NCBI RefSeq assembly: GCF_015218165.1
Contig: NZ_CP048659.1
Span: 3,410,001-3,474,000 of the forward strand
DNA length: 64,000 nucleotides
Direction of reading: 5' to 3'
Source of the DNA: Acinetobacter piscicola
Lineage (GTDB): Bacteria; Pseudomonadota; Gammaproteobacteria; Pseudomonadales; Moraxellaceae
A program made the position numbers and the translations under genes. Below are positions 5,528 through 8,960 of the stretch, piece after piece. Position 1 is the stretch's first letter. Each line of letters begins with the position of its first letter. The notes under the pieces are model-generated. The model was not told where the DNA came from and did no database searches. It was given only the letters and a program-made list of their open reading frames with translations.

Positions 5528-5603
5528 GGGTCGTTAGCTCAGCTGGTAGAGCAGCGGACTTTTAATCCGTTGGTCCCGCGTTCGAATCGCGGACGACCCA
5601 CCA
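5528..5603 (+). tRNA. tRNA-Lys (anticodon TTT), copy 1
   Basis: A 76-nt cloverleaf: the acceptor stem GGGTCGT pairs with ACGACCC, the D-arm is TTAGCTCAGCTGGTAGAG, the anticodon loop is CTTTTAA (anticodon TTT), the T-loop is TTCGAAT, and CCA is encoded at 5601-5603. It is identical to the next two copies, which suggests a single transcript and recent homogenisation. Confidence 0.97.
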
Positions 5604-5625
5604 CTTATTTTGATCATCTTTAGAT

Positions 5626-5701
5626 GGGTCGTTAGCTCAGCTGGTAGAGCAGCGGACTTTTAATCCGTTGGTCCCGCGTTCGAATCGCGGACGACCCACC
5701 A
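5626..5701 (+). tRNA. tRNA-Lys (anticodon TTT), copy 2
   Basis: Identical 76-nt tRNA to the copy 22 nt upstream, with encoded CCA (5699-5701). The short spacer points to cotranscription. Confidence 0.97.
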
Positions 5702-5757
5702 TCTTATTGTAAAAGCTAATTTTACAATACCTGCTCAGGATCGCTTATCCTTGCTCA

Positions 5758-5833
5758 GGGTCGTTAGCTCAGCTGGTAGAGCAGCGGACTTTTAATCCGT
5801 TGGTCCCGCGTTCGAATCGCGGACGACCCACCA
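5758..5833 (+). tRNA. tRNA-Lys (anticodon TTT), copy 3
   Basis: Third identical copy, with encoded CCA (5831-5833), 56 nt after copy 2. The 260 bp between it and the next tRNA hold AT-rich sequence in which I see no gene. Confidence 0.97.
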
Positions 5834-6093: not shown

Positions 6094-6169
6094 GGGTTGT
6101 TAGCTCAGTTGGTAGAGCAGTAGACTCTTAATCTATTGGTCGTGGGTTCGAACCCCACACAACCCACCA
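6094..6169 (+). tRNA. tRNA-Lys (anticodon CTT)
   Basis: A 76-nt cloverleaf with acceptor GGGTTGT/ACAACCC, anticodon stem GTAGA/TCTAT, loop CTCTTAA (anticodon CTT, reading AAG), T-arm GTGGG-TTCGAAC-CCCAC and encoded CCA (6167-6169). It differs clearly from the three TTT copies upstream. A degenerate copy of its last 26 nt occurs at 8961-8984, so it may have served as an integration site. Confidence 0.93.
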
Positions 6170-6866: not shown

Positions 6867-7071
6867 GGCTTTGTCGCACAAACATTCAAAAGCTAAACTT
6901 TCCCCAAGTTATCCAAATTTAGGTGATAACTCGGGTGTGAGGTCAACCCAACGCCGTAAATGTATTTAATACTGCCACACGTGCATGCATCTCGTTGACT
7001 TGGCTTTGGAAGTTTGTCGAACTGAGTTTATCACCTGAGATACCGTCTTGGTAGTCAATCAGGTTTTGAGA

Positions 7072-8058
7072 TTATTCGACCAATAAATAATCTCTTTGAT
7101 AGGCAGTCTGATGTTTTAAAACGCCATAACACAGATGTATAAGCTTGCGCATTGCAGCACCTAAAGCACACATTTTATTTTTACCCTGGCTTAATAATCG
7201 TTGATATAAAGCTTCAATGTGTGGATTATATTTAATCGCTGTTAATGCTGACATATACAATACTGAGCGTATTTTACTGTCACCTGCTTTTGATAAGTGA
7301 CTTTGCTTGTTGACTGAACTGCCAGACAACTGATGTACTGGAACCAAACCTACATATGCAGCAGCTTGACTTGCTTTTTCAAACTTGTGCGAATGAAATA
7401 ACCCCAACAGTAATAAGCCTGATCGTTCACCGATTGAAGGAATAGTTTGCAGTAATTTCAAATCCTGTTTCAATGTTGGATCTTGATCTATGTGATCATT
7501 TATTAACTTATCAATATGTTCAAGTTGCTGATTTAAATACTCAATATTTTTTTCAAGTAATTTAATCACAACAACAGAGGTATGAGTGGACTGTGCCTTT
7601 TCAAGTCGATTCTTTTCCTGCAATAGACTACCTAGATAGACATCTCGTCTGCCTAGTAAAGCTTTTAATAATCTGACATTTTCAGGTTCAGGCTGCCATA
7701 TGATTAACTTTGCGGTGTAACCATAACGTGAAAGAGCTTCACTATCAGCTTTATCCGTTTTATTTAGCATGGACATGCCTTTGGCAAAGGCTCTTACTCG
7801 TGAAGGATTAGCCACACAAACCTTTACACCTGCATCATATAGATAATATCCCAAATTCTCATGATAAACCGAAGTCGCTTCCATGATTGCTGTCACTTGA
7901 TCAGGTTCAATTTTAAGAGTGATGAGCCATTTGAGCAGACTGCCAAAGCCACTTTCTGTATTAGTAAATATTTTATTTTTTCTTTTTCCAGTCAAACCTT
8001 GAGGGAAAATGCAACAATCTATTTTGGTTTTACTGACATCAATACCTAGCATAATCAT
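7072..8058 (-). CDS. IS110-family transposase (DEDD RuvC-like + Transposase_20)
   Basis: A 328-aa recombinase of the IS110 family. The N-terminal RuvC-like DEDD domain begins MIMLGIDVSKTKIDCCIF, with the first Asp of the tetrad at residue 6, and NKTDKADSEAL carries the later acidic residues. A coiled linker follows. The C-terminal Transposase_20 domain has the LLQTIPSIGERSGLLLLG and AAAYVGLVP blocks and the serine-containing HQLSGSSVNKQSHLSKAGDS segment expected to hold the catalytic serine. Length and domain order are normal and the frame is uninterrupted. Known IS110 enzymes work as RNA-guided recombinases without leaving long target duplications. The start at ATG 8058 leaves 234 nt of non-coding element upstream. 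Confidence 0.93.
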   Translation of the reverse strand: MIMLGIDVSKTKIDCCIFPQGLTGKRKNKIFTNTESGFGSLLKWLITLKIEPDQVTAIMEATSVYHENLGYYLYDAGVKVCVANPSRVRAFAKGMSMLNKTDKADSEALSRYGYTAKLIIWQPEPENVRLLKALLGRRDVYLGSLLQEKNRLEKAQSTHTSVVVIKLLEKNIEYLNQQLEHIDKLINDHIDQDPTLKQDLKLLQTIPSIGERSGLLLLGLFHSHKFEKASQAAAYVGLVPVHQLSGSSVNKQSHLSKAGDSKIRSVLYMSALTAIKYNPHIEALYQRLLSQGKNKMCALGAAMRKLIHLCYGVLKHQTAYQRDYLLVE

Positions 8059-8292
8059 GGTGATATTCCTTGAGTTTAAGCTATGATTTTTATCCCATTA
8101 ACCATCATCTTACCTTGTGAATACAGCATCAAAGTGCTTAGTTACCGTTCAGAGTTGTATGAGGGATAAGGGCAAATTGTAGGTTTTATCTCAGGTTCAA
8201 ATTTAAGATTTTAGCAGCACTCCAAACTCTACAATTTGCGTATAGTGGTAGCTAATCACTATATCAATCAAGATACAAGAAGCACTGCTTCG
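8059..8292 (-). ncRNA. Candidate bridge RNA of the IS110-family element
   Basis: Reading the minus strand toward the transposase, three helices follow one another. The 5' hairpin pairs 8263-8257 with 8247-8241 (7 bp). An 11-bp perfect stem pairs 8239-8229 with 8182-8172 and extends 4 bp past a bulge. A 7-bp stem pairs 8169-8163 with 8096-8090. The loop of the 11-bp stem contains AAATCTTA (complement of 8204-8211), equal to the left junction of the element, and ACCTGAGATA (complement of 8187-8196), complementary to the right junction. The second loop contains ACGGTA (8148-8143), equal to the element's own right end. This matches the target-binding and donor-binding loops known from IS110 bridge RNAs. 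Transcription is not shown. Confidence 0.65.
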
Positions 8293-8960
8293 TAAGATTT
8301 GATGCAATGCATCTTGGTTTCGACCAAACTTCGGCGATGATAGCCTGACCATTTTTTCCATAATGTCCTGCCTAAACGTTTAACTCTTCAAAGTCATTCA
8401 TTTCGCTCTAACGAGCTGGTCTTTGTATCTTTCCAAGGTTTCGCATTTTTCTTGGTGGAACCACCGCATGCGCTTGTCGCTCTGCGATGACCTGACGGCA
8501 TTGCTTGGTATCATAAGCCCCATCAGTATAGACCGAGTCTATCTGTTCTTCTTGTGGAATCTGATCCAGTAAATCACCAAGCACCTGTGAATCACTCATA
8601 TTGTTGGTTGTGAGCTGAATAGCGCGTATTTGAAGGGTTTCAGCATCGATACCAATATGTAATTTACGCCATTGGCGACGATATTCAGGCTGATGTTTTT
8701 TAGGTTTCCATTCGCCTTTACCTAAAAACTTTAAGCCAATAGAATCAACGAATAGAAATATTTCCTCGATTTATTAATGCTCTGTTATAAGAAGACCAAT
8801 GGGTTGTACGATAGATTTTAGGTGTGGGCTTATTCATTTGAGAATTATAATACCGAATAAGCCTTTAACGGTAGTTTTGTGCAACAAAGCCCTTTAAATC
8901 CAATAATTACCCCCATTTATAAATACACGTACGTCCTAAGCGATTCAGCAAGTGGATTAG

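Follow-up and report, generated by a model that had tools for sequence, protein, structure and literature searches.

The window, the whole 64-kb stretch of DNA that was analysed, carries an IS5 transposase gene, annotated as ISAha1-like in plasmid relatives, that is split into two parts (about 6868-7033 and 8278-8890). The genome holds further copies of this gene, some with and some without a short palindrome. Four plus-strand tRNA genes, three of them sharing one score, lie at 5528-5830 and 6094-6166, and a YrlA-like match under the family threshold covers two of them. Between the two parts of the IS5 gene is an insertion sequence with the following features:

7038..8277, minus strand: IS110-group element, 1240 bp counting one core CT, placed by alignment of copies and relatives and by unoccupied sites
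8278-8279: core CT, left
7038-7039: core CT, right
7072..8058, minus strand: recombinase of the DEDD/serine type, 328 aa, from PF01548, PF02371, NF033542 and PDB matches and alignment
8278..8295, minus strand: landing site, left half TTACGAAGCAGTGCTTCT of a dispersed palindrome outside the element, recognised from unoccupied palindromes; the right part, CAGGT, is 7033-7037

The product of 7072-8058 contains the DEDD_Tnp_IS110 (PF01548, 3.5e-24) and Transposase_20 (PF02371, 1.4e-18) domains and matches NF033542 at 3.7e-62, exceeding the cut-off. A PDB search returned IS621 (7.7e-49) and ISCro4 (PDB 9t56; 1.4e-53 over residues 3-318), the latter being the closest solved recombinase, likened here by recombinase sequence alone. 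Residues D7, E60, D102, D105 and S245 are unchanged across 10 aligned sequences. The catalytic serine of IS621 is named as S241 (PMC11208158), and S245 would be its counterpart, assuming that the deposited chain has two extra N-terminal residues. As the earlier note had stated, 8059-8292 is non-coding and upstream of the transposase. The non-coding left end spans 219 nt from 8277 to the start codon, and only 32 nt lie between the stop codon and the right core. This long left end upstream of the transposase places the element in the IS110 group, unlike IS1111, in which the long non-coding end is at the right.

A second copy is present in the same genome (C1:532721-533976), and at least 9 of the 175 genomes from this genus carry near-full-length copies, at 14 places, own genome included; these counts are lower bounds, two first-look candidates per genome having been scored among the matches listed. 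Matching plasmid records are all from Acinetobacter: 30 match in any part, and in 15 of them a single place covers 80% or more. Of the 30, 11 were retrieved, and some duplicate genome DNA. Among more distant sequences, the best 80 of 323 relatives were kept, and 64 of these 80 were examined for the start motif described below, which 43 possess with at most one mismatch. Several loci represent the same place (L018/L047, L021/L043, L023/L039, L024/L041, L027/L048 and L030/L049).

Comparison of these sequences places the boundaries. CT followed by TGTATCTT marks the start of near-identical copies and of relatives with 76-80% identity in the left end, and the same start is found in Bordetella, Yersinia, Pectobacterium, Gallionella and other relatives (the 43 of 64 loci). 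One locus, L051, in which part of the left end is 69% identical, lacks the start motif under the criterion applied. The right end reads GACGGTAT-CT, after which the flank begins. The left boundary of the earlier note, which took the 5' hairpin GAAGCAGTGCTTC into the element, is thus wrong; this hairpin is target DNA, beyond the element start.

An unoccupied site is expected to carry the flanks without the element and with a single core. IS5 copies without insertion (L205, L206 and L207 in the same genome, L176 elsewhere) read AAATCTTACGAAACAGTGTTTCTC(A/G)GGCGATAAACTC, also given as AAATCTTACGAAACAGTGTTTCTC(A/G)GGCGATAAA; in all four a palindrome variant (GAAACAGTGTTTC), not letter-identical to the palindrome of the window, adjoins the right flank directly. 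At a second IS5 position, L210 is empty (GTTAATCTTGCGAAGCAGTGCTTCTCAGGCAGGACA) and L004, L010, L060 and L061 carry the element. Occupied IS5 sites have two CTs and empty sites one, which identifies CT as the core, by comparison of the two states. Neither palindrome nor element is present in 28 of the 30 listed IS5 loci, which mostly read AAATTATTAGG; the remaining two are the window itself and L176.

These sites bear on a different reading, that of the earlier note, in which AAATCTTA is the left guide, TA is the core, the hairpin belongs to the element and the empty site would be AAATCTTATCTCAGGT. Its letter matches at this single site are perfect (8/8 and 10/10), but the palindrome-bearing IS5 copies without insertion read AAATCTTACGAAACAGTGTTTCTC(A/G)GGCGATAAA and not AAATCTTATCTCAGGT, by which it already counts as refuted, and the pattern GCATCAAATCTN{0,5}CAGGTGATAAA, in its exact form, occurs in 0 of 175 genomes. 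We give this reading almost no chance of being correct.

It is also conceivable that the CT core is right and the boundary lies farther out, with the 17-bp hairpin having become part of the element in this lineage and being moved at each insertion. A hairpin with TTGYG, TTACG or TAGCG indeed precedes the element in 20 of 23 flank pairs of near-identical copies, beyond which the sequence differs; the exceptions are L035, L056/L063 and L011 (altered TTGCAC). However, the palindrome is dispersed without the element: TTGYGNARCARTGYTNCTC, searched in a form unable to match a site occupied by the element, is present in 119 of 175 Acinetobacter genomes (the reversed control gave zero), and a stricter form has 79 sites in 23 of 58 genomes, with none in 21 genomes of other genera. 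IS5 loci likewise have the palindrome and no element, and relatives with other guides show unrelated flanks at this position. We therefore regard the outer boundary as very unlikely.

The two ends also carry promoter elements:

7053..7058, minus strand: -35 box TTGACT, right end; 17-nt spacing in 32/42 elements
8270..8275, minus strand: -10 box TATCTT, left end; 17-nt spacing in 32/42 elements

Over the joined ends, 32 of 42 elements, counted with near-duplicates, have a spacing of exactly 17 nt between TTGAC and TATCT. By arithmetic, this distance would be 29 nt with the ends of the earlier note and 34 nt with the outer CT, and both figures count against the respective readings. With the boundaries adopted here, the layout that emerges from the comparison is that of an IS621-type promoter, predicted to be rebuilt at the circle junction.

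The non-coding left end is predicted to encode a structured RNA:

8104..8264, minus strand: bridge RNA body, from the 5' stem-loop to the donor-binding loop (covariance model R1)
8241..8263, minus strand: true 5' stem-loop of the RNA (helix 1; 6/7 pairs change on both sides in 28 relatives)
8172..8239, minus strand: target-binding loop with its closing stem, 8229-8239 / 8172-8182 (helix 2; 6/6 pairs change on both sides)
8199..8211, minus strand: stem-loop within the target loop, containing AAATCTTA (helix 4; 3/4 pairs change on both sides)
8090..8169, minus strand: donor-binding loop with its outer stem, 8163-8169 / 8090-8096 (fold, and comparison of own with swapped stems)

The covariance model was trained on a 28-member alignment from which this element and its near-identical copies were left out. 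Applied to the window, it gave a sole match in 64 kb (132.3 bits, E 2.5e-34), although the training set includes Acinetobacter relatives that are about 80% identical here, so that the model tests membership and not very distant homology. A whole-genome scan recovered both IS110 copies and nothing else among the 150 of 671 first-look candidates that were scored. The alignment contains 31 pairs, with 94.6% of cells paired and 21 pairs changing on both sides; 0 of 500 shuffles were as good, and slid controls reached 35-48%. Folded singly, the sequence shows no unusual stability (z -0.83; 42 of 200 shuffles equally good), so that the fold by itself is uninformative; the comparison of relatives carries the signal.

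Two stems that had been proposed from the single sequence, of 11 bp (8239-8229/8182-8172) and 7 bp (8169-8163/8096-8090), are both present in the minimum-energy fold. For the latter, own partners form 7.0 bp versus 6.0 bp for swapped partners (0/5000; 28 family members including this element). A search of 8059-8294 against 4227 Rfam families gave no match at E up to 1. By comparison of relatives, the structure follows the IS621-type layout, with a 5' stem-loop, a target loop, a donor loop and internal stem-loops.

The loops of such an RNA are expected to contain guides for target and donor. The following assignments were made:

8213..8221, minus strand: left target guide AGUGCUGCU, which contains the core CU and has the sense of the left target; 8/9 match here
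8190..8196, minus strand: right target guide ACCUGAG, the antisense of 7033-7039 (CTCAGGT); from own-flank permutations
8188-8189, minus strand: handshake guide AU, the next two bases after the right target guide
8140..8148, minus strand: left donor guide ACGGUAACU; 8/9 match with the element end ACGGTATCT (7038-7046)
8114..8122, minus strand: candidate right donor guide AUUCACAAG; from its sequence, with a 2+5 pattern as in IS621

The target guides were compared with the flanks in 44 elements, namely 37 of the 43 relatives with the start motif (six Acinetobacter copies being removed), the window and six Acinetobacter loci. The left guide occupies the nine bases shortly before the target-loop hairpin. 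It matches its own flank at 5.72 of 7 positions versus 3.15 for other flanks (29 distinct guides, core excluded; 0/10000 permutations), and the own guide is best or tied in 20 of 29. For the right guide the values are 3.89 of 5 versus 1.62 (28 distinct guides; 0/10000 permutations), and in 19 of 28 no guide scores above the own one. Each distinct guide entered the count a single time, and real as well as swapped pairs could be offset by -1 to +1, since the alignment shifts some left guides by one column. The left-guide test omits L109 and L110 (N in the flank), L118 and L140 (short flank) and L155 (start motif missed by the script); the right-guide test omits elements without a sufficiently long right end.

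Near-identical copies provide 23 distinct flank pairs, of which 22 are usable (L020 has no right end and a partial RNA). Identical flank pairs were merged beforehand, and the pairs are partly non-independent, several sharing one IS3 or IS5 locus. The left guide matches at 9/9 positions in four pairs, 8/9 in sixteen, 6 in one and 5 in one, that is, at 8 or more in 20 of 22. The right guide matches at 7/7 in eight, 6 in six, 5 in four, 4 in two and 3 in two, that is, at 6 or more in 14 of 22.

The same check on copies in other sites separates this left guide from AAATCTTA. It is the refuting condition that the earlier note had set, and its outcome speaks against the left guide of that note and for the one assigned here. 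AAATCTTA is indeed present both within the first loop and in the left flank, matching here at 8/8 positions, yet the other 22 flank pairs average 3.7/8 with a maximum of 6, which counts against it as a left guide. AAATCTTA instead forms the stem of a hairpin that co-varies across 28 relatives (helix 4): AAATCTTAAATTT becomes AAAC...GTTT, AGAC...GTCT or AAGG...CCTT in relatives, which marks it as a stem and not a guide. The other target guide of the earlier note, ACCTGAG(ATA), was confirmed as complementary to the right junction.

An RNA directly 5' of a start codon might also be a mere mRNA leader or a regulator of the transposase that guides nothing, and small RNAs are described as regulating transposase expression in ISPpu9 (PMC8450116). 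This would leave the match between loop bases and each element's own flanks unexplained, and we consider it extremely improbable. By contrast, the proposal of an IS110 bridge RNA, in which a target loop and a donor loop carry site-matching guides, is strongly supported by the covariance match (E 2.5e-34) and the guide permutations. The target guides match the left-bottom and right-top strands of the target, as in an IS621-type RNA, with exceptions.

Among near-identical copies, these exceptions are L056/L063 (5/9) and L059 (6/9) for the left guide and L011 and L055 (3/7) for the right. In the family set the left guide is low in L130 (2/7) and L096 (3/7), and the right guide in L117, L121, L123, L124 and L148 (each 2/5). 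Some of these poor matches may reflect later changes of loop or flank. L018 (the same as L047), which like other Acinetobacter copies is outside the 44-element permutation set, has a target loop of one type (GTACTAGC...) at a site of another type (TTAGACCT followed by CTTTCAT), one that would suit a different kind of guide. L018 and the pair L038 and L048 have nearly the same target loop at two types of site; re-targeting or loop exchange is possible. At the second left-guide position, L002 and L011 have A (AATGCTGCT) and A at the corresponding site position, and L055 and L059 have A in the site and G in the guide.

For the donor, the left guide matches the element's own end at 5 or more of 7 positions in each of the 42 elements whose right end was located. 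Where the end of a relative is ATGGTAT or ACGGTTA, its left donor guide is the matching one, and across 10 distinct donor/guide pairs 59 of 5000 permutations were as good. ACGGTA, placed by the earlier note both in the second loop and at the end of the element, was confirmed there and makes up most of this guide; the full guide is ACGGUAACU. By match or co-variation, three of the four guides can be assigned through comparison. The candidate for the right donor guide, which the earlier note had left unclear, is AUUCACAAG. It can pair as A-U plus A-C-A-A-G with CTTGTAT, made up of the left core and 8273-8277, leaving two bases looped out. Here every one of the 7 positions is paired, and both guide and partner are near-invariant across the family. 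Such a discontiguous guide, nine bases on seven, is described for IS621 (PMC11208160, PMC11208158).

Donor position 7 is complementary to the base that directly follows the right target guide in 40 of 41 elements, counted with duplicates, and four of these handshake pairs are reversed (donor A, guide U). The corresponding base of the donor loop does not track target position 7 (19 of 36 pair, 1834/5000 permutations as good).

We consider it very probable, from sequence comparison, that this is an IS110-group insertion sequence moving by bridge-RNA-guided recombination. The element would first be excised as a circle holding one CT core. Joining of the ends would recreate the promoter TTGACT-17-TATCTT, from which the left end would be transcribed. 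The circle junction, ACGGTAT-CT-TGTAT (expected GGTATCTTGTATC), would then be bound by the donor loop (ACGGUAACU / AUUCACAAG), and the target, GCAGTGCTNCT-CAGGT (also written GCAGTGCTGCT-CAGGT), by the target loop (AGUGCUGCU / ACCUGAG). The recombinase would join donor and target at CT, the landing site being a short Acinetobacter palindrome, here within the ISAha1-like IS5 transposase gene. Transcription, RNA binding and catalysis are steps that we infer.

The closest known counterpart in these respects is IS621 of E. coli. Shared features, as described for IS621, are the DEDD and serine recombinase family, an RNA in the left end with a 5' stem-loop, a target loop and a donor loop, the CT core and the order and sense of the guides; the candidate right donor guide would add the discontiguous pairing (PMC11208160, PMC11208158). 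The right donor CTTGTAT corresponds to dC8, dT9, dT10, dG11, dT12, dA13 and dT14 of IS621 (PMC11208158). A promoter split across the circle junction and a dispersed palindromic repeat as landing site are also described for IS621. The target sequence, the guides and the host genus differ, and the landing palindrome is another sequence, of about 19 bp here. The right target guide is about 7 nt here versus 4 in IS621, longer ones being reported for other orthologues. The seekRNA of ISEc21, an IS110-type element, is described as an upstream non-coding RNA in which the bottom-strand match precedes the top-strand match, as here, with an abundant form of 74 nt (PMC11187229).

Landing of IS110-family elements in palindromic repeats is already known (PMC1525189, PMC11187229). 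ISPpu9, ISPpu10, ISPa11 and IS621 are described as selecting REP palindromes, and thus share with the present element the family and a dispersed palindrome, although host and palindrome sequence differ (PMC1525189); ISPa11 is treated as IS1111 type (PMC11187229). The element appears to be an ordinary yet complete IS621-type bridge-RNA element, its mechanism known from a related element and its parts mapped here base by base.

What had been read from one site held for the RNA, for the right target guide and for most of the left donor guide. It failed for the left target guide and the core, for the left boundary, for where the hairpin belongs and for the empty site. A one-site reading can therefore be plausible but wrong, and comparing copies tells a guide from an internal hairpin. 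The result is a guide map, complete and checkable, of a bridge-RNA element from an important genus. Tolerance can be measured with the naturally occurring guides and targets, among which are mismatched pairs and others that may have been re-targeted.

The analysis also draws attention to the dispersed Acinetobacter palindrome. Its flanks, read by eye, place it in IS5, IS3 and IS66 transposase genes, besides intergenic palindromes. The outer stem bases are complementary in 72 of the 79 listed palindromes, by our own count. Literature searches by topic, on IS110 and on dispersed palindromes in Acinetobacter and covering few subscription journals, returned no recognisable description of this palindrome; one on ISAha1 gave nothing useful.

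One locus, L035 (G149:C9:1867142-1872398), has a complete element that abuts, to the base, the left-guide sequence of another copy, itself truncated (GAGTTTGGAGTGCTGCT followed by TGTATC); the right flank of the element is IS5-like. This single case suggests recombination at guide-coding DNA, that is, with that DNA serving as left target. We tentatively raise the possibility, which we think rather less likely than its contrary, of an RNA-guided Acinetobacter lineage specialised on a genus-wide dispersed hairpin. The hairpin itself would enter IS5, IS3 and IS66 transposase genes, which, being multi-copy, would then serve as landing pads and take it with them, and the recombinase of the lineage could also target its own guide-coding DNA, as in L035.

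How the palindrome itself reached the IS5 genes was also considered. Arrival by CT-core recombination was rejected, since native IS5 at both places (AAATTATTAGG, GTTAAACGTTTAGG) is without CT there. The palindrome is 19-20 bp long (TTGYGNARCARTGYTNCTC; L064-L093, L205-L210), and changes in its stem are compensated. Within IS5 it replaces about 4 to 6 native bases and is no clean insertion.
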